Source: Candidatus Nitrosopumilus sp. (GTDB lineage Archaea > Thermoproteota > Nitrososphaeria > Nitrososphaerales > Nitrosopumilaceae). Taken from it: DNA of 38,766 bases. Location: the NCBI GenBank assembly GCA_029864235.1, contig JAOTTW010000003.1, positions 35,554 to 74,319 on the forward strand, given 5' to 3'. Shown here piece after piece: positions 4,408 through 36,150 of the stretch (the stretch's first letter is position 1; each line of letters begins with the position of its first letter). The position numbers were made by a program, and so were the translations under genes. The notes below the pieces were generated by a model, which saw only the letters and a program-made list of their open reading frames with translations, was not told the DNA's origin and did no database searches.

Positions 4408-6171
4408 TTACTTGATCGGGTTGATATAAGATCTAGTTTTCACATCAACAATACCATTTGAGAGAATTCTTACAGAAGGAAGAGCTAGAAATGGTAAAAA
4501 TAATGGAATTAGATGTGGTCGTGAAAATTTGCAACCAGAATCAACTATCGAGTCATTAATTTTCTTAAAATTGGAAGAAACATCTTCAAATGAATCAGTT
4601 GATAAAATTCCTGCAAATTGTAATGGTAAAGAGGCTACAACTTTACCAGATTTTACAACTACTAAACCGCCTTGATTTTTTACTAGTATATTTGATGCAA
4701 TTGCCATATCTGAATCATCTGAGCCAATTACAATCAGATTATTTTCATGAAAGCTCCAAGTTGAGGCGAATGCACCAATATCTGCGCCAAAGTTTTCAAG
4801 GAATCCAATTGAATGTTTTTTTGTGCCAAAAATTCTATCAAAAGCAGCTACTTTCCATACATCATTATTATAAGAAGGTAATACATTTCCTTCCTCAACA
4901 TTTAGTTTTGCTTCTCCCAATTTTGTTATAATTTCAGTTTGCATAAAAATAGTATTTACATCAACTTGATTCTTTTTTGATTTAATAACAAAGTCATTTG
5001 GAGAGAATTTATTTAGTTTGACTGTATTTTTTATCCATGAGGGGATTGTTTTTTTCTTAATTGTAGTTACAATGCTTCCATTTGAAGCAACTAATTTTCC
5101 GCCTACAAATACTTTGGAGGGTTTAATTGTTTTTAAATTATCAAAAATTAGAATATCAGCTAACTTGCCTGGAGCTATTCCTCCTAAATCTTTGCCCATA
5201 TTATAATAATCAAAGCAGTTTTTTGATGCCATTGTTATTGCATCAATTGTTTCCAAGCCTAGATTGACAGATTCTCTTATGCAATGATCAATATGGCCAT
5301 AATTTGTCATATCCAAAGGATCTAGCCCATCAGAGCAAAACATCAGTTGATTAAGATGAGTTGTGTGAGATATAAGACGTGGAATGATTTGTTTTAAGTC
5401 ACGTCTAATTGAACCCTCTCTAATCATTATCCACATTCCTAAACGTAATCTTTCTAAGACTTGATCAAAATTTATGGGTTCATGACAAGATAGAATGCCG
5501 GATGAGACATATGCATTTAATTTTTTTTCACTTGCTCCTGCAGTATGACCATTAATAATACAATCAGCTTCCAACATAGAAGATAAGGATTTCATTGTCT
5601 TTGGATCACGAAGAGTAACTTTAGTCCACGAGAAAACTTCTCCTAATCCAAGTACATGAGGGTGTTTTATGGCAGATCTTTCTTGAGATGAAGACATTGT
5701 TTTACTATAGCTAAATTTTCCATCCACAGGTAAACCACCTGGAACTACCTGAAAAATTCTAATTGGTAAGTCTTCACCAAGTCTTAAAAATTCCTTAAAT
5801 CCTCCATATCCAGCTACGCTAACAATATCAATAGGATCAGAGAAAAGAGATGTAACTCCACATACAAGTGATTTTTTGGCAAGTTCAGAAGGCAATACAA
5901 ACTGATCAATATGTAAATGAGGATCGGCAAATCCAGGTCCAACAAATTTTTCGTTGACATCAATTGTAGTAGTTTTGGGCCCAATTGTATGACCTGCATT
6001 TGGACCAACATATGCAATTCTATCTTCAATAATTGCAATCTGAGTTTTAGGAATAATTTCTCTAGTATAGACAGATAATAAAGAGCAGTTTTTTAAAACA
6101 AGATCGGCTTTCTTATCTCCCATTGCAACGGAATTTAATGAGGAAATTGAATTGGCTAGGCTCGAAGTCAC
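4408..6171 (-). CDS. adenine deaminase-like amidohydrolase
   Basis: A 587-residue metal-dependent hydrolase of the Ade family, which converts adenine to hypoxanthine in purine salvage. The order of conserved blocks matches Ade: ADLVLKN, a DPHLHI metal motif, DPIDI, GLGE, NGHTAG, SCHE with MIREGS, a CSDG Asp, then the Ade-specific C-terminal domain (GFLENFGADIGAFAST, ILSTD). Several blocks differ from E. coli-type Ade: HIESS is HIDQF, DPHEI is DPIDI and the AHDSHN block is SFHENN. Substrate is therefore uncertain. The open frame starts with GTG at 6171; an ATG at 6123 is possible but would remove the N-terminal extension usual in this family. Confidence 0.82.
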   Translation of the reverse strand: MTSSLANSISSLNSVAMGDKKADLVLKNCSLLSVYTREIIPKTQIAIIEDRIAYVGPNAGHTIGPKTTTIDVNEKFVGPGFADPHLHIDQFVLPSELAKKSLVCGVTSLFSDPIDIVSVAGYGGFKEFLRLGEDLPIRIFQVVPGGLPVDGKFSYSKTMSSSQERSAIKHPHVLGLGEVFSWTKVTLRDPKTMKSLSSMLEADCIINGHTAGASEKKLNAYVSSGILSCHEPINFDQVLERLRLGMWIMIREGSIRRDLKQIIPRLISHTTHLNQLMFCSDGLDPLDMTNYGHIDHCIRESVNLGLETIDAITMASKNCFDYYNMGKDLGGIAPGKLADILIFDNLKTIKPSKVFVGGKLVASNGSIVTTIKKKTIPSWIKNTVKLNKFSPNDFVIKSKKNQVDVNTIFMQTEIITKLGEAKLNVEEGNVLPSYNNDVWKVAAFDRIFGTKKHSIGFLENFGADIGAFASTWSFHENNLIVIGSDDSDMAIASNILVKNQGGLVVVKSGKVVASLPLQFAGILSTDSFEDVSSNFKKINDSIVDSGCKFSRPHLIPLFLPFLALPSVRILSNGIVDVKTRSYINPIK

Positions 6172-14899: not shown

Positions 14900-15553
14900 C
14901 TATAAGCTTTGAAGTTTATTTTCAATATGATTTAATTTTTTATTTTGTTTTTGCAAGATTTGGATAATTTCTTGCTCGATGTTATTATCAATTTTTTCAA
15001 TTATTTTTTTAGATTCATCGTCTCTTAATTGCTCAGGAGTAGCTTCTTCCTCTATTGGTGCTGGTACAAGATCTAGTTCTTGTGGAAGTTCTGTAGTTGT
15101 TTGCTTTGGTAATGAGCCTCTTGGACTGGGTAGTGGTTTTGCAGGTTGTGATTCTAGTTCTTGGATTTGTGCTTCTAATTGTGCTAATCTGGATAATTGC
15201 TCAGGAGTAGCTTCTTCCTCTATTGGTTCTGGTATAGAGAGTATCTTAGGAGAGGATACCTCAGGTAAATCTCCTAAATAATCCAACTTTACTTTATTTT
15301 CATCTATTCGAAAATAAGGTTGTCCATCAATTTGAAATGTTCTAATTCTATGACCTCGCTTCCAAGATGAAAGACCGCTGTAAATTGTAATGTACTCTAA
15401 GTGATTTTTTATGTCAGATATAATGGTGAGCCTATCAACAATATTTCCTTCCTCAATACCTTTTTCAGAGTCTTTATGTCGTTTGGCTTTAGAGATTAAG
15501 TGGTTTGAATCATAATTAACTTGGGAAATTACAAAATCTGCCCATTTATCCAT
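14900..15553 (-). CDS. DUF3892-like protein with proline/glutamate linker and coiled coil
   Basis: A 217-residue protein in three parts. Residues 1-98 resemble DUF3892 (WADFVISQVNYDS, DIKNH, W-KRG, YFRIDENKVKLDYLGDLPE), a small domain of unknown function, matched from memory of its consensus. Residues 100-180 are a Pro/Glu/Gln-rich linker in which the 11-residue unit PIEEEATPEQL occurs twice (110-120 and 166-176). Residues 180-217 form an acidic/basic coiled coil ending NKLQSL. The repeat is also near-perfect at DNA level, suggesting a recent internal duplication. The gene stands alone between two long gaps. Role unknown. Confidence 0.7.
   Translation of the reverse strand: MDKWADFVISQVNYDSNHLISKAKRHKDSEKGIEEGNIVDRLTIISDIKNHLEYITIYSGLSSWKRGHRIRTFQIDGQPYFRIDENKVKLDYLGDLPEVSSPKILSIPEPIEEEATPEQLSRLAQLEAQIQELESQPAKPLPSPRGSLPKQTTTELPQELDLVPAPIEEEATPEQLRDDESKKIIEKIDNNIEQEIIQILQKQNKKLNHIENKLQSL
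15026..15059 (-). repeat. 34-bp direct repeat, copy A (inside DUF3892-like gene)
   Basis: Identical over 34 bases to 15194-15227, offset 168 bp (56 codons, in frame). Encodes the second PIEEEATPEQL unit of the protein. Confidence 0.9.
15194..15227 (-). repeat. 34-bp direct repeat, copy B (inside DUF3892-like gene)
   Basis: Partner of 15026-15059; encodes the first PIEEEATPEQL unit. The match continues after one mismatch for six more bases. Confidence 0.9.
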
Positions 15554-16461: not shown

Positions 16462-17139
16462 ATGAATATTGAAGAAAAAATAGAAGAATGTGAATTTTAT
16501 TTAAATCAAATTAAACATTTTGAACCAGATCCATTTTATGTGAATTATTTTTTTCAATTATTTATAAAATATATAAATCAAATATATGATAGAATTTTTG
16601 AAGAGGCAAGTGTTGATTTTGGATTATTTATTTTAAAAGATTGTAATAAAGAAAGATTTTATAAAAAAGCATTAATAAAAAAAGATAAAAAAGCATTAGA
16701 ATTTGTAGACTGGTTTGAGAAAAAATTTGAAGATGAACATAAAACTCCCTATCCAAATTTTATAAAAGAGGTAACTGAATTTCAAAAAAAAAGTGACAAA
16801 TTACCAAAAATCAAGATCATGTTAAGAGCTAAAGAACGATACTTCAAAGATATCAATCAAGAAATTTTGGTAAATTTAACAGATAACAAATTAAGATCTA
16901 AAGAGGAATTAGAGATAGAAATTAAAAGAAATATTCAAGTATTTTTAGAGATTCTTAATAATAAGAGAATATTAAACAATGAGCCAAAAGTAAATCAAAA
17001 ACAAGTAATAGCTTCCACATTTATACAAATTAGAGAAAATGAGAGTTATGAAATTGCTTATGCCTCCGAAGTATACATTTCAGTTTTAAAGCGATTTTTA
17101 ACAGAATCAAGAGAAAAAATTAGGCATATTACAAAATAG
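16462..17139 (+). CDS. unknown helical protein, 225 residues
   Basis: A lysine- and glutamate-rich, mostly helical cytoplasmic protein beginning MNIEEKIEECEFYLNQIKHFE. A long aromatic segment (about 22-48: PFYVNYFFQLFIKYINQIYDRIF) looks like a packed helix rather than a membrane span because charged residues interrupt it. The last third (ASTFIQIRENESYEIAYASEVYISVLKRF) alternates strand and helix. The codons are even more A-rich than the neighbours. I do not recognise it; adjacency suggests it works with the 124-residue protein just upstream. Confidence 0.65.
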   Translation: MNIEEKIEECEFYLNQIKHFEPDPFYVNYFFQLFIKYINQIYDRIFEEASVDFGLFILKDCNKERFYKKALIKKDKKALEFVDWFEKKFEDEHKTPYPNFIKEVTEFQKKSDKLPKIKIMLRAKERYFKDINQEILVNLTDNKLRSKEELEIEIKRNIQVFLEILNNKRILNNEPKVNQKQVIASTFIQIRENESYEIAYASEVYISVLKRFLTESREKIRHITK

Positions 17140-17161: not shown

Positions 17162-17827
17162 TTAGAAGTCTCTATTAAATCCAAAAATTTCATGCTCAGA
17201 TTTTGTTTTGATTATTGGAAGGTAAGAAAAGCCATGTTCAAAGTTGTCAGAGAATTCTGGTTCTTTTCCTATATGTCCCTGATATTTTACAAATGATTTT
17301 ACTGGTTCAGAATCTAATTCAACATAATTAAATTGATAGTAGACATTATCCATTTCTATTGATGTAAGATATCCTATTACCCAAGAATTTTTGTGGGGAA
17401 GTGCATATAATGTAAGATTTTGTTCTTCTGCCAGTTCAGGATTATATGTTAATCGAGCCAAACTACCAATATCTTTTACTCGAATTGGATAAAATATATC
17501 AGATATTTTATCTAATTTTGTTGGTAGTGGTGAAATTTCTGATTCCATATGAATAATTGGTGCATATGTGGAAATGTCTTTAGTTAATTCAACAACATCA
17601 CAATACTCTTTTCCAGCAGATGCTTGATAAGAAATGTATCTTCCAAATTTTGTCATAGGAGTATAAAACACAAGAAGAGTGTTTGCAAGGTTTAAACTGC
17701 TAGATAAAACCCTAGTTCCAGATAAATCATGAGAATATACTCTAAGAGGATACTCTCTAAATGCACAAACAAATCGTGCCAAATCATTAAAGCTATATAA
17801 TTCAATAAAACATTGACTTTGTGTCAT
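17162..17827 (-). CDS. unknown alpha/beta protein, 221 residues
   Basis: A well-formed ATG-started gene with balanced composition, unlike its A-rich neighbours. It begins MTQSQCFIELYSFNDLARFVCAFRE, with beta-rich stretches (LLVFYTPM, WVIGYLTSIEMDNVYYQFNYVELD) and a tail with FGFNRDF. No transmembrane segment, signal peptide or known catalytic motif is visible. The even codon use and long beta/alpha alternation suggest a conserved globular protein. Function unknown. Confidence 0.72.
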   Translation of the reverse strand: MTQSQCFIELYSFNDLARFVCAFREYPLRVYSHDLSGTRVLSSSLNLANTLLVFYTPMTKFGRYISYQASAGKEYCDVVELTKDISTYAPIIHMESEISPLPTKLDKISDIFYPIRVKDIGSLARLTYNPELAEEQNLTLYALPHKNSWVIGYLTSIEMDNVYYQFNYVELDSEPVKSFVKYQGHIGKEPEFSDNFEHGFSYLPIIKTKSEHEIFGFNRDF

Positions 17828-30525: not shown

Positions 30526-30795
30526 TTAACGATTTGCAAGACTTTTTGCTTTAACAAATGCCCAAATCTTTTTTGTCATTTCACTTGGTGCTATAGGTTT
30601 CTTACCAAAAACATCTTCTACAGTTTCTTTACGTCCTGTAAAATTAATTGCATAACCACCAAATGCCTTTTTGCTAGATTTTGATGATTTGTTAGAACTC
30701 TTTGTTGTAGATTTACTTTTTGGTGCAACTTTTTTTGTTACAATTTTTCTTTTTGCTGGAATTTTTTTCTTTGTAGATTTCTTTTTTATTGCCAA
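30526..30795 (-). CDS. lysine-rich H1-like protein with SWIB-like C-terminus
   Basis: An 89-residue protein. Residues 1-43 are a Lys/Ser/Thr/Ala-rich tail like that of histone H1 or bacterial Hc1. Residues 65-89 (GKKPIAPSEMTKKIWAFVKAKSLANR) resemble part of the SWIB helix (tkkIW-x-Y/F-I/V-K-x-x-x-L). A full SWIB domain is about 75 residues, so only part is present. DNA binding is likely; a chromatin role is inference. Confidence 0.72.
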   Translation of the reverse strand: MAIKKKSTKKKIPAKRKIVTKKVAPKSKSTTKSSNKSSKSSKKAFGGYAINFTGRKETVEDVFGKKPIAPSEMTKKIWAFVKAKSLANR

Positions 30796-31246: not shown

Positions 31247-31669
31247 CTAATTTTGTGTCTTTTGTTTTATAGCAGATAACATCAATTCTATCATATTTTT
31301 ATTCAATGAAGCAAGTGTCTTAGTATTTTCATTAAATGCATCAAATATTTTTTTTGAAGTTTCTGCAGAATCTATAGTAAATTTGTTTTGATTTTTGTAT
31401 GCTGTTATTGCTTGATCAGTAATGTTTTGAATTGCTTTCATAGTTTCTTCATTCATATTTACATTCAAACCAGATTTGGAAGCAAATTCTTGTTGTAAAG
31501 CAATAGATGAATTAATTACATTCTTCCATGCTTCCATAAAGCTTTGTTGAATATTTGTTGCTGTTTGATGGTATATCGGTGTTGACTTATCAACTTCATT
31601 AAAAAATTTTTCAGCATTTTTTTTGCATTCAGTAAAGATATCTTTTGATTCGTCTGTGGATTTACTCAT
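31247..31669 (-). CDS. phasin-like helical protein
   Basis: A 140-residue, fully helical, Asn/Lys/Glu-rich protein with no signal peptide. The middle segment QQSFMEAWKNVINSSIALQQEFASKSG is the pattern of phasins, the amphipathic proteins that coat polyhydroxyalkanoate granules; its length also fits. It has only one Trp and does not carry the 19-residue repeats of the two Trp-rich proteins. PHA genes are known in several thaumarchaea, but none are in this window. Confidence 0.68.
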   Translation of the reverse strand: MSKSTDESKDIFTECKKNAEKFFNEVDKSTPIYHQTATNIQQSFMEAWKNVINSSIALQQEFASKSGLNVNMNEETMKAIQNITDQAITAYKNQNKFTIDSAETSKKIFDAFNENTKTLASLNKNMIELMLSAIKQKTQN

Positions 31670-31827: not shown

Positions 31828-32484
31828 TTATGTTTTGATATAATGTAGAAAAAGATGGTTTTCAAGCCTCTTAAATGACTTTAATTTGAGTTTAGGTGAT
31901 TGATTGATTTTTTCAAATCCTTTTCCTTGAACAAATGTGATTGCCTCAGTACCTCCAATTATAAACGGAGAAATTGTTATCAATATTTCATCAAAAAGAC
32001 AATTTTTAATGAATTGCCAATTAATTGTTCCACCTCCCTCTACAAGGATTGTTTTTATTCCTTTTTTCTGAAGTTTGCTCATTAAGGCTTTTATGCTAAC
32101 AGAGGTTTTTCCAGTAATAATTATTTCGACAGGGAATTTTTTTAGATTTTTTAGATTTTGTTGGCTAATGTTTCTTGAAACAGCGATAATAGTAGGTACA
32201 TTGTCAGATGTTTGAAGAATTTTGGATGTTTTAGATATTGTTCCTTGAGAATCAAGAATCACACGAATAGGATTTTTTCCTTTTGAGAACCTTACAGTAA
32301 GTAGGGGGTTATCATGTACAATAGTGTTTTTTCCAACAAGAATTGCATCTACTTTAGAGCGCAGTTTGTGTAATCTGATAACATCTTGTTTTGAGGATAG
32401 TTTTGAATCACCAGTGTGGGTTGCTATTTTTCCATCTATAGAAATAGCTGCGCTAAGAATAATATGCAATTTAGATTTTTCCAT
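31828..32484 (-). CDS. 2,5-diamino-6-(ribosylamino)pyrimidinone 5'-phosphate reductase
   Basis: A 218-residue NADPH-dependent reductase of the RibD C-terminal/DHFR-like family, the third step of archaeal riboflavin synthesis. Signature: LSAAISIDGKIAT at the N-terminus, the LRSKVDAILVGKNTIVHDNPLLTVR block and ILVEGGGTINWQF near the C-terminus for NADPH. The ATG at 32484 lies inside the 3' end of the amidohydrolase gene (14-nt overlap), with a strong GGAGGTGA 8 nt before it. Last gene of the riboflavin operon. Confidence 0.93.
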   Translation of the reverse strand: MEKSKLHIILSAAISIDGKIATHTGDSKLSSKQDVIRLHKLRSKVDAILVGKNTIVHDNPLLTVRFSKGKNPIRVILDSQGTISKTSKILQTSDNVPTIIAVSRNISQQNLKNLKKFPVEIIITGKTSVSIKALMSKLQKKGIKTILVEGGGTINWQFIKNCLFDEILITISPFIIGGTEAITFVQGKGFEKINQSPKLKLKSFKRLENHLFLHYIKT

Positions 32485-33661
32485 GAACTATTTCACCTCC
32501 AATCATAACTGCACGTATTGTTGATTGTGAAGCCCTATGAACAATAGATGCATGAGGATTATGCATGGGTTCTAAGTCCAATGAATGTTTTTCAATAAAA
32601 ATACAATCTGCAAGTTTTCCCGTTTCTATTACACCAATTTCTTTTCTCAAAAGTTTCCCACCATTCACTGTAGCCATTTTTAGAATTTCTTTTGGATTGA
32701 TTCTTTTCTTGTGAATAGCCATAGTTGCTTTCCACAAATAATCCATTTCTCTAAACATGTCAGGGGAATTAATCATAATATTATCTGTACCAAGTGCTAT
32801 AGTACAGCCTACCTTTTTCATCAATTCTATATCTGGAATTCCTTCTGCTAATGATGCATTTGCTCTTGGACAAATCACTATTCCCCTGGTTCTCTTTGAT
32901 ACTGTATTTAGATCTCCTATTGATGCATGAGTCATATGTATTAGAAAGTGTGGTTTCAAATTTAGAGCTCTTATGGCTTCAGATTTTCCAGTCATTTTCT
33001 TTGAGGCTAAAACACTTTGTTTAGTCTCAGAAGAATGAATTGCTCTGAGTTTTGATGTTTTTGAATACTGATTTAGGACCATTGTGCTGTTTTCATTAGC
33101 CCCACTTATTCCAAGACCGTCACACTTTTTTAGTAATTTTTCAAGGATCAAAAATTTTGAATTTGGTAATGAAATATTTTTTTTTATTTCATTAGGACTT
33201 TGGTAATAATCAAGTCTTCCTAGAACTATTGATCGAATTGGTGATTTTTTAAGAATGTTTTTGAGCAGTAAAACACCATCTATGCCTCCTTCTCTAAAAT
33301 CTACAAAAGTTGTAATGCCTTTTTGTAGCATGGAATTACATGAATTTTGCATAAAGCTTGCAAGAATTTCTTTATCTGTTTTTTTGAGAATTTGAGATTT
33401 AGCTCCAAAGATTGGGTGAATTCGTTTATCCACAGATGTATTCAGTCTTACATCTTTTCCAATTGAATCACCAATATGAGTATGACAATTAACAAAGCCA
33501 GGAATGACTAGTAACCCTTCACTATCAATAATTTTTTCATTAGGACTTGCTCCAATATTTGGTTGAATTCGTTTGAATTTTTGATTTTGTATTTTTATGT
33601 TAATATTTGAAATAAAGTCTAATTCTTTACCTAATAACACACTTGCATTTTTTATTAACAT
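32471..33661 (-). CDS. cytosine-deaminase-type amidohydrolase in the riboflavin operon
   Basis: A 396-residue TIM-barrel metal hydrolase of the SsnA/TrzN/guanine-deaminase group. Ligand motifs: H60-x-H62 (NCHTHIGDS), H209-x2-E212 (AIHSSE), H242/H245 (IHMTHAS) and D293 (LGTDN). This HxxE form is usual in aminopyrimidine and triazine deaminases. It overlaps the GTP cyclohydrolase III gene by 7 nt and the reductase gene by 14 nt. The archaeal pathway needs a formyl hydrolase (ArfB) and a pyrimidine deaminase here, so it may supply one of them. Substrate not known; the context is strong. Confidence 0.88.
   Translation of the reverse strand: MLIKNASVLLGKELDFISNINIKIQNQKFKRIQPNIGASPNEKIIDSEGLLVIPGFVNCHTHIGDSIGKDVRLNTSVDKRIHPIFGAKSQILKKTDKEILASFMQNSCNSMLQKGITTFVDFREGGIDGVLLLKNILKKSPIRSIVLGRLDYYQSPNEIKKNISLPNSKFLILEKLLKKCDGLGISGANENSTMVLNQYSKTSKLRAIHSSETKQSVLASKKMTGKSEAIRALNLKPHFLIHMTHASIGDLNTVSKRTRGIVICPRANASLAEGIPDIELMKKVGCTIALGTDNIMINSPDMFREMDYLWKATMAIHKKRINPKEILKMATVNGGKLLRKEIGVIETGKLADCIFIEKHSLDLEPMHNPHASIVHRASQSTIRAVMIGGEIVHGKI
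32493..32500 (-). promoter_or_regulatory. strong ribosome binding site of the reductase
   Basis: GGAGGTGA on the minus strand, 8 nt upstream of the reductase ATG and inside the amidohydrolase coding end. It fixes the reductase start and points to coupled translation. Confidence 0.7.
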
Positions 33662-34407
33662 GATAATTCATAAACATCAGGTTTTTCTTTACCTGAATCT
33701 CTAATTTCCCTAATCGTATCAAGAGATTTTGTAGCTAGTTTTACTGCTTCTCTAGCAGTAGTAGCATTTCCAATTCCACAATTTAAAATAATTTGATCTT
33801 CTTTTTTTGTGGAGTTTATAAAATCATTAACAAATTTTTTTGCATTATCACTTGCAACAATCATAAAATTATCTCCACCCATAAAGAAGGTCAGTGATTT
33901 TTTTTCAGCAAAATATTTTGCCATTTTTGCATATAAATTAAAAATCAGCAAGGAAATCTCATAAGGAGAATTTTTTTTTCTTCGTGATGTAAGATCATCA
34001 ACATCAAGATGCATTATTGAAACTGATGAATGTGATTCATTATCAATATAACCAAAAATATTATGTTCTTTGCTAAGAATTACTTCATTTTTCTTTCCAT
34101 CAGAAGCTTTTAGGTTGGCTGCAAATGGGGAATCACCATATCCAATAGATATTGAAAGTTGAAGATCAAAGGATTTTTCAAGTGATTGCTGGATTTGTAT
34201 ATGATCGTCTAATCCCAGACCATTTGAAACTACAAAGAACTCATCGGCTCTATTTAAGAAAACAAGACAGTTTTTTTCTGAAAATAATTTCTGTATTTGC
34301 TTGTATAGTGAAGCCTGAAGTATTTGTAGCTCATGTTCTCTATCACTACCTAGAGTAAGTGTCCAAGGTCCATATCCATTAATTTTCAAAATGCTTAGCT
34401 GGATCAT
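33655..34407 (-). CDS. arfA: GTP cyclohydrolase III (IIa), archaeal ArfA type
   Basis: A 250-residue enzyme that opens GTP to the formylaminopyrimidine phosphate, the first step of archaeal riboflavin (and deazaflavin) synthesis. It has two tandem nucleotidyl-cyclase-like folds; the second carries MHLDVDDLTSRR (about 132-143) and FMGGDN (175-180), the metal- and GTP-binding motifs related to GGDEF. Length fits. It overlaps ribH by ATGA at the 5' side. Confidence 0.94.
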   Translation of the reverse strand: MIQLSILKINGYGPWTLTLGSDREHELQILQASLYKQIQKLFSEKNCLVFLNRADEFFVVSNGLGLDDHIQIQQSLEKSFDLQLSISIGYGDSPFAANLKASDGKKNEVILSKEHNIFGYIDNESHSSVSIMHLDVDDLTSRRKKNSPYEISLLIFNLYAKMAKYFAEKKSLTFFMGGDNFMIVASDNAKKFVNDFINSTKKEDQIILNCGIGNATTAREAVKLATKSLDTIREIRDSGKEKPDVYELSC

Positions 34408-34820
34408 TTTTGAATCCTCTTTAGCTCGTTTGATATCTTTACAATAGCCTCAACTGCTCTCTCAGCAACAGGGCGTATTCTAGAATAAGCATGTTTTTCT
34501 TGCATTCCAGGTCCAGTTATTCCTAAAGAAACAGGTTTTTGATATTTTAATGAGAGATCAGTTAATGAATGAGCAACAGAATGGGCTATTACTTCGTCAT
34601 GTTTTGTTTGTCCTTTAATGATAGCACCAAGAGTGATTACACCGTCAATTTCTTTTTTTTGTAATAATGCATCTACAATTATTGGTATATCATAAGCTCC
34701 TGGAACATTACATGTGTATTTTATTTTCAATTTCATTTTTTCTGCTTTTTCTTTGGCTACTAAAAGCATTCTAGATGTCACTTCTTTATTAAATTCTGAA
34801 ACCACTACAGCAATATTCAA
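34404..34820 (-). CDS. ribH: 6,7-dimethyl-8-ribityllumazine synthase
   Basis: A 138-residue enzyme that condenses the ribitylaminopyrimidine with 3,4-dihydroxy-2-butanone 4-phosphate. Family marks: VVSEFNKEVT, VPGAYDIP, VITLGAIIKGQTKHDEVIAHSVAHSL with the catalytic His, then KPVSLGITGP. Start codon is TTG at 34820, 2 nt after the ribB stop. Subunits assemble into pentamers or 60-mers. Confidence 0.96.
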   Translation of the reverse strand: MNIAVVVSEFNKEVTSRMLLVAKEKAEKMKLKIKYTCNVPGAYDIPIIVDALLQKKEIDGVITLGAIIKGQTKHDEVIAHSVAHSLTDLSLKYQKPVSLGITGPGMQEKHAYSRIRPVAERAVEAIVKISNELKRIQK

Positions 34821-34822
34821 AA

Positions 34823-35488
34823 TTAATGCATCCTTGCATAATCTAAAAGTTCTTTTCCATCAATCAATGGAATTCCATTTTGTTTTGCATATTTTTCAGC
34901 TTTGTTTACGGATAATGCAGTGTAAGTTTCTGCATCCATCATTTCACAAATAGCAGTAACAGGGGTTAAACCAGCAATTTGAGCTAGGTAAACTGACATT
35001 TCGGTATGACCCTGTCTAGTGTTTAATAGTCCTTTAGATGCTAAAAGTAATGGAATGTGTCCTGGAGTTTTAAAAGATGAAACAAATTTTTTCTTTTGAT
35101 TGTCAACATTATAGATATTTGCCATTTCTCTTATGGTCAGTGATCTATCATTATCTGTTATTCCGGTGTATGTTTGATAATGGTTTATAGAAATTGAGAA
35201 TGTTGGATGATCACCATATGGTGCTAATCCCATAATCATTTCTTTGGTTGAAATATCAGATTTAGCCAAAATTTCATGCATGTATCTTAAATCTAAAGAG
35301 TTTGCAAAATTATTGTCAATTGCAATGCACAAAAGACCGCCAGCATGTTGACGCATTCTTGCAACGTGTTCAGGTGTAACAAATTCTGCTGCCACTACCA
35401 TATCTATTTCATTTTCTCTGCCTGCAGAATCAAATAACAATACAAATTCTCCTTGTTTTAATGATTGAAGTCCAGATTCAAGTGACAT
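34823..35488 (-). CDS. ribB: 3,4-dihydroxy-2-butanone 4-phosphate synthase
   Basis: A 221-residue magnesium enzyme that turns ribulose 5-phosphate into the four-carbon unit of lumazine. Signature residues: DSAGRENEIDMV with the acidic ligands, MRQHAGGLLCIAI, and RQGHTEMSVYLAQIAGLTPV with the metal-binding His. No GTP cyclohydrolase II domain is fused to it, as expected for an archaeon that uses ArfA. First gene of the rib operon, with its own TATA box 25 nt upstream. Confidence 0.96.
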   Translation of the reverse strand: MSLESGLQSLKQGEFVLLFDSAGRENEIDMVVAAEFVTPEHVARMRQHAGGLLCIAIDNNFANSLDLRYMHEILAKSDISTKEMIMGLAPYGDHPTFSISINHYQTYTGITDNDRSLTIREMANIYNVDNQKKKFVSSFKTPGHIPLLLASKGLLNTRQGHTEMSVYLAQIAGLTPVTAICEMMDAETYTALSVNKAEKYAKQNGIPLIDGKELLDYARMH

Positions 35489-35565: not shown

Positions 35566-36150
35566 TTACTTTAAAATATATTTGCCAAGTATGTCAGTTT
35601 CAATATTAATTTTATCGCCAACTTTCTTTGTTTGAAAGTTTGTAACTTCAATTGTATGTGGGATCAAGCAAACAGATGCAATATTGTTTTTCACATCTAC
35701 TACTGTTAGGCTAATTCCATCTACTGCTATTGATCCTTTTTTAACAACATATTTTGCCAGATTTTTAGGAACTGCAAACCATACTTGTACTTCTTTTGGT
35801 TTCTTTTGAATTTTTTTAATAATTCCTACACCATCAACATGACCCAATACAAAATGTCCTTCTAATCTATCTCCTGCTCTCAAACTTCGCTCAATATTGA
35901 CAATTCCTCCTGGTTTTAGATTACCAAGATCTGTTTTCTTGGTAGTTTCTTCAATCATCTCAAAAATGCAGTTAGGTTTTGAAAATTTTGTTACAGTAAG
36001 ACAAACTCCATTTAGCGCAACACTTTGTCCAATTTTCAATCCTTTGGAATGCTTACCAAGATTAACTGTCATTTGTATTGCACTTCTATTTTTGGTGTTT
36101 TTTGTAATTTTCTCTACTTTACCAATGCCCTCAACAATTCCAGTAAACAT
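35566..36150 (-). CDS. ribE: riboflavin synthase, alpha-chain type
   Basis: A 194-residue enzyme of two tandem lumazine-binding barrels that dismutates two lumazines to riboflavin. Barrel 1 starts MFTGIVEGIGKVE and carries LNGVCLTV; barrel 2 follows LEGHFVLGHVDGVG and carries VDGISLTV. This is the bacterial/eukaryotic form; most archaea use an unrelated pentameric RibC. Its TATA box is about 25 nt upstream. It is separate from, but just before, the ribB unit. Confidence 0.95.
   Translation of the reverse strand: MFTGIVEGIGKVEKITKNTKNRSAIQMTVNLGKHSKGLKIGQSVALNGVCLTVTKFSKPNCIFEMIEETTKKTDLGNLKPGGIVNIERSLRAGDRLEGHFVLGHVDGVGIIKKIQKKPKEVQVWFAVPKNLAKYVVKKGSIAVDGISLTVVDVKNNIASVCLIPHTIEVTNFQTKKVGDKINIETDILGKYILK

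Follow-up and report, generated by a model that had tools for sequence, protein, structure and literature searches.

A TIM-barrel amidohydrolase as the probable pyrimidine deaminase of archaeal riboflavin and F420 synthesis

In a member of the Nitrososphaeria, a class of archaea, that oxidises ammonia, we found that the gene between GTP cyclohydrolase III (arfA) and the pyrimidine nucleotide reductase (arfC) encodes a TIM-barrel amidohydrolase, here called X, which we consider, with a probability of about 85%, to be the pyrimidine deaminase of the trunk common to riboflavin and F420 synthesis. This assignment is supported by its co-occurrence with arfA, the absence of RibD, a deaminase-type active site, and operons which leave only the deaminase step. 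Few enzymes of vitamin B2 and F420 synthesis in archaea still await proof, and the deaminase is one of them. Should X prove to be this deaminase, a gap in the archaeal pathway maps would be filled, 'chlorohydrolase' annotations would have to be corrected by the thousand, and bacteria and archaea would present a clear case of unrelated enzymes for one vitamin step.

The rib operon and the family of the amidohydrolase

The DNA analysed (the window, 38,766 nucleotides) belongs to genome G000, which is 99.7% complete, and carries a rib operon on the minus strand in the order ribC-ribB-ribH-arfA-X-arfC (Table 1). The original prediction had described an amidohydrolase with an HxH, HxxE, H and D set, overlapping at its ends with arfA and the reductase gene, within a ribB-ribH-arfA-X-reductase operon. 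The reading frame, the ligands and the overlaps (7 bases for arfA/X, 14 bases for X/arfC) were confirmed, and the profile matches agreed with the operon and added a riboflavin synthase gene upstream. This synthase is of the bacterial lumazine-binding type, not of the archaeal RibC type. The arfC of the window has no deaminase domain. The closest named homologues of X were from Nitrosopumilus (69-73% identity).

Table 1. Genes of the rib operon and selected active-site codons of X (window positions)
Feature	Position	Strand	Remarks
X: TIM-barrel amidohydrolase, NF005552/PRK07213 family, proposed deaminase	32471..33661	-	ATG start, 396 aa
arfC: archaeal RibD_C-type pyrimidine nucleotide reductase	31828..32484	-	TIGR01508 210 bits (cut-off 186); RibD_C 1.5e-51
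arfA: GTP cyclohydrolase III	33655..34407	-	GCH_III 1e-47
ribH: lumazine synthase	34404..34820	-	TIGR00114 over cut-off
ribB	34823..35488	-	TIGR00506 over cut-off
ribC: riboflavin synthase, bacterial (lumazine-binding) type; first gene of the operon	35566..36150	-	NF006767/TIGR00187 over cut-off; Lum_binding 4e-48
Codons of metal-binding H60-x-H62 of X	33476..33484	-	approximate, counted from ATG
Codons of metal ligand D293 and family-specific N294 of X	32780..32785	-	approximate, counted from ATG

A second amidohydrolase of the window (4408-6171), of the adenine deaminase type and with the C-terminal domain of that type, is unrelated to the rib operon. Five window ORFs (31247-31669, 30526-30795, 14900-15553, 16462-17139 and 17162-17827) gave zero Pfam matches; the first, directly downstream of arfC, is phasin-like, judged by composition only.

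X matched Amidohydro_1 (2e-37) and the NCBIfam equivalog NF005552 (PRK07213, 'chlorohydrolase') with 314.4 bits, above the curated cut-off of 294, and stayed far below the cut-offs of all NCBIfam models of named deaminases and hydrolases. An identity as chlorohydrolase or N-ethylammeline hydrolase was rejected, because X misses those model cut-offs by hundreds of bits; the label 'chlorohydrolase' was carried over to the family and matches nothing observed for X. X gave amidohydrolase matches only, with none to the cytidine deaminase fold (PF00383, N-terminal half of TIGR00326) and none to the creatininase family (PF02633, NF033501). Among PDB folds, the predicted structure of X (mean pLDDT 94.9, pTM 0.93) most closely resembles those of triazine hydrolases and of adenosine, guanine and isocytosine deaminases. 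Fold and motif fit deaminases, and they also fit hydrolases of this group that dechlorinate or catalyse other reactions.

X has the COG0402-type pattern of a TIM barrel with HxH/H/D metal ligands and HxxE/H catalytic residues, and its set H60-x-H62, H209-x-x-E212, H242 and D293 is invariant across diverse homologues. In an alignment of 93 sequences of the X type and 51 further proteins of COG0402, H60, H62, H209, E212, H242 and D293 were common to both groups, whereas the X type was marked by the signature HxHxxD, K88, E124, CPRxN, TDN and R376. Among 56 X-type members outside the ammonia oxidisers, D65, K88 and N294 were present in all 56, E124 in 55, R266 in 54 and R376 in 51; the other COG0402 proteins have M at position 65, G or S at 294 and A or S at 376, and in those sampled K88, E124, R266 and R376 were absent. 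X itself carries HxHxxD, K88, E124, R266, N294 and R376 and falls in the separate archaeal riboflavin-linked clade. In an 88-row tree, which was built by a quick method with a single support value and contains several long branches, a branch with SH-aLRT 100 separated the X type, as a single clade, from the other COG0402 proteins. Members of the X clade came from ammonia oxidisers, Bathyarchaeota, Heimdallarchaeota, haloarchaea, Methanophagales, Methanoliparum, Thermoplasmata-like archaea and Aenigmatarchaeota.

The original prediction held that the archaeal deaminase had not been firmly assigned, which agrees with the literature searched: it offered no experimental assignment, and the one candidate, MJ0699/HVO_2483, is bioinformatic (cited in PMC8305020). 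According to PMC8305020, Rodionova et al. 2017 predicted candidates for two of three haloarchaeal pathway gaps, HVO_2483/MJ0699 among the predictions, and Table 6 places this entry between arfC and the phosphatase gap; it is apparently a deaminase prediction. The reviews consulted, which extend up to 2026, call the deaminase step 'conserved' and name no archaeal enzyme. NF005552 has matches in M. jannaschii and H. volcanii, with 2 of 14 control genomes over the cut-off, and the homologue of Haloferax marinum (L063) scored 298.9 bits against the cut-off of 294 and lies inside the X clade. Therefore, X is most likely a member of the family predicted earlier, which apparently includes MJ0699 and HVO_2483. 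The same family has thus apparently been proposed already for the deaminase step in other archaea; the genomic case for X as the deaminase is strong and testable, and it is not a new discovery.

Co-occurrence with arfA and bacterial-type deaminases

Two samples were searched, one of 120 genomes of the class (for arfA, X and arfC/RibD, with the results compared by script) and one of 151 genomes of the phylum (for arfA, X and arfC). Within the class, arfA was present in 90 genomes and a full X in 89 of these; in the remaining one (G051) an N-terminal fragment of X adjoins arfA. Of the 89 genomes in which both genes are full, 88 have X immediately after arfA and in the same orientation, and such adjacency means that the arrangement is not due to chance; the exception is G012, where arfA, X and arfC lie on three different contigs. 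Within the phylum, arfA exceeded the cut-off in 57 genomes, none of which was without a homologue of X: in 44 the match reached at least E 1e-30, in 12 the homologue was divergent and in 1 it was weak. The 12 divergent ones come from family f21, probably Sulfolobaceae, whose genomes had arfA and arfC, with X not coming up at E 1e-30; under a relaxed threshold each gave one divergent homologue, with the signature present in 12/12. The weak homologue (G184) retains HxHxxD, K88, E124 and the TDN-type N294. Phylum matches of 134-176 bits in G206, G164, G221, G171 and G143 were other COG0402 proteins (HxHxxM, TDG) and were left out of the counts. The co-occurrence of X with arfA, which was part of a check put forward in the original prediction, was thus observed in both samples. 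Some X-bearing genomes had no arfA detected.

Several genomes departed from the common pattern in other ways. G031 and G075 each have two GTP cyclohydrolase III genes, the second on another contig away from X, and the f13 genomes G189, G201, G231 and G246 have an arfC-type reductase, no arfA, and very weak X-profile matches (E about 1e-5). G096, of the same order and reported as 100% complete, has neither arfA nor X nor arfC, and matches to RibD and creatininase are absent as well; the trunk of riboflavin synthesis has probably been lost there, or other, unfamiliar enzymes are employed.

The closest solved folds, those of adenosine, guanine and isocytosine deaminases, would also suit a salvage deaminase (for adenosine, guanine or methylthioadenosine) that merely travels with the operon. 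We regard this as the remotest of the readings weighed here, since X co-occurs strictly with arfA, was lost along with arfA and arfC in G096, has family-specific active-site residues, and is found in several different riboflavin or F420 operons.

The bacterial and fungal enzymes of the deaminase step have the cytidine deaminase fold, and a protein of this fold elsewhere in the genome could therefore be the deaminase, X having another flavin or deazaflavin role. Genome G000 indeed has one PF00383 protein, the dCMP-deaminase-like L005. However, L005 is closest to ComEB/dCMP-type deaminases (101 bits) and does not lie near the rib genes; M. jannaschii and S. acidocaldarius both have arfA and an X-family match and gave no PF00383 match whatsoever; and the bacterial RibD cut-off was reached by 0 genomes in the class and phylum samples, in both of which the arfC matches to the RibD model covered the reductase half only. 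A deaminase of this fold is accordingly very unlikely, and we retain X as the candidate.

Gene neighbourhoods and the deformylase step

Four activities are required in the archaeal trunk once ArfA has acted, namely deformylation, reduction by ArfC, deamination and the removal of phosphate by a phosphatase. GTP cyclohydrolase II, by contrast with this route, carries out deformylation itself. In the Aenigmatarchaeota record L071 (3102-7474), a gene resembling riboflavin kinase or a regulator is followed without interruption by the genes for archaeal riboflavin synthase, ribH, RibBA, X and arfC; the RibBA has a full GTP cyclohydrolase II domain, and arfA was not found in the available sequence of that genome. 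Since this RibBA deformylates, X of L071 is not needed as a deformylase, and ArfA and ArfB are unnecessary. The L071 operon is a mixture of the bacterial and archaeal riboflavin pathways.

Other arrangements were arfA-X-arfC-creatininase-cofG-cofH (contiguous, G008), X-arfC-cofG-cofH with no arfA found (G136 and G213), cofG-cofH-arfA-X-arfC (G016), ribH, arfA, X, arfC (Bathyarchaeota L052), X overlapping arfC (Heimdallarchaeota L068), and further ribB-ribH-arfA-X, arfC-X and arfC-arfA-ribB-ribH-X; the cof genes were assigned by model in G136 and read from sequence in G213 and G016. The substrate of CofH, according to its family name, is 5-amino-6-(D-ribitylamino)uracil, which is the deaminated and dephosphorylated compound, and the cofG-cofH operons with X therefore need a deaminase. 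The constant partner of X is arfC or arfA, and deamination is the one trunk step without another candidate suiting a nucleobase-deaminase site.

The original prediction had allowed two functions for X, the deaminase or a replacement of ArfB, and had counted a separate RibD or ArfB elsewhere in the genome against itself. The first function gained from co-occurrence, the lack of RibD, the active site and the operons, and the second lost ground to the creatininase genes and the RibBA operon; no RibD exceeded the cut-off, whereas a separate creatininase-type protein (L004) is present in G000. L004 scored 43.8 against the archaeal ArfB model (cut-off 180) and 142 against MftE (cut-off 172), and being so far below the ArfB cut-off it leaves the deformylase of ammonia-oxidising archaea itself not certain. 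Creatininase was found in nearly all Nitrososphaerales with arfA, and separate creatininase genes accompany X in most Nitrososphaeria with arfA; in five f10 MAGs of 73-92% completeness, all of which have arfA, X and arfC, no creatininase exceeded the cut-off. These MAGs, together with the low-scoring L004, leave a small chance of a second or different role of X there.

If X were a formamide hydrolase replacing ArfB and taking formate off the ArfA product, its position directly behind arfA in nearly all arfA-bearing Nitrososphaeria would be accounted for, as would the f10 genomes and a G000 creatininase nearer to MftE than to archaeal ArfB, and amidohydrolases in general are able to cleave amides. 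Against this, X is kept beside arfC together with the formate-removing RibBA in a genome without arfA (L071), a creatininase gene stands in the X operon of G008, the X and arfC pair occurs without arfA in G136 and G213, the combination of HxxE and one metal site is characteristic of deaminases, and M. jannaschii has an X-family match in addition to its characterised ArfB (Grochowski 2009, as cited in PMC9478397). X is thus not confined to genomes otherwise missing a deformylase, and the ArfB-replacing function was rejected as highly improbable.

At L004:1465-3040 (contig C4 of G000), the creatininase-type gene lies downstream of a same-strand PurU-like gene (Formyl_trans_N and ACT domain), whose product may handle the released formate if the creatininase-type protein is the deformylase.

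Proposed reaction and comparison with known enzymes

With X as the deaminase, ArfA would open GTP, a creatininase-family protein of the ArfB type would then remove formate, and ArfC would reduce the ribosyl chain. X would hydrolyse the exocyclic 2-amino group of the ArfC product, 2,5-diamino-6-ribitylamino-4(3H)-pyrimidinone 5'-phosphate, whose ring is isocytosine-like, and give 5-amino-6-ribitylaminouracil 5'-phosphate and ammonia. The 2-amino-4-pyrimidinone ring of this proposed substrate is that of isocytosine and also the pyrimidine half of guanine. A single metal ion on H60, H62, H209 and D293 is predicted to activate water, E212 (of HxxE) and H242 would shuttle protons as in other COG0402 deaminases, and K88, R266, N268 and R376 with D65, E124 and N294 may bind the ring and the ribityl phosphate. 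From conservation and charge, we infer that K88, R266 and R376 would hold the phosphorylated ribityl chain. The gene, its fold, the invariant residues, the co-occurrence and the neighbourhoods are results of the analysis; on them rest the proposals for the substrate, the sequence of reactions, the metal and the part played by each residue.

The gene order would equally allow X to act before the reductase and deaminate the ribosyl compound, as in the bacterial order, or to accept both compounds, and the overlapping X and arfC could form a RibD-like bifunctional complex. However, in archaea reduction comes first, with the diamino compound as its substrate (Graupner 2002, cited in PMC13028884), and the order of reductase and then deaminase proposed above is taken from this methanogen literature. 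The earlier step is thus unlikely, and deamination after ArfC is the order which we prefer.

Isocytosine deaminases of the amidohydrolase superfamily convert isocytosine to uracil, that is, a 2-aminopyrimidinone to a uracil, and their specificity is tuned by the residue that follows the Asp ligand of the metal (PMC6186785). The isocytosine/8-oxoguanine deaminases such as Vcz (PDB 7ww2, 8is4) share superfamily, fold and metal site with X, with a TM-score of 0.85-0.87 by query length at about 19% identity, and their conversion of 2-amino-4-pyrimidinone to uracil is of the chemical type proposed for X. They differ in the residue after the metal-binding Asp, which is G in the Vcz type (PMC6186785) and N in X, where N294 is invariant and family-specific.

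ArfB and BrbF, the formamide hydrolases, share the pathway with X and are likewise metal-dependent hydrolases, but they belong to the creatininase family and X to a different one. The bacterial RibD/RibG and the fungal Rib2 catalyse the same net reaction as that proposed for X, with a cytidine deaminase fold unrelated to the TIM barrel of X. Further, RibD fuses deaminase and reductase, and the overlap of the X gene with the reductase gene is comparable. It is quite probable that a non-homologous TIM-barrel deaminase serves riboflavin and F420 synthesis across Thermoproteota, Euryarchaeota, Asgard and DPANN archaea, in some lineages even behind a bacterial RibBA, and that X and ArfC possibly form a two-protein counterpart of the bifunctional RibD.
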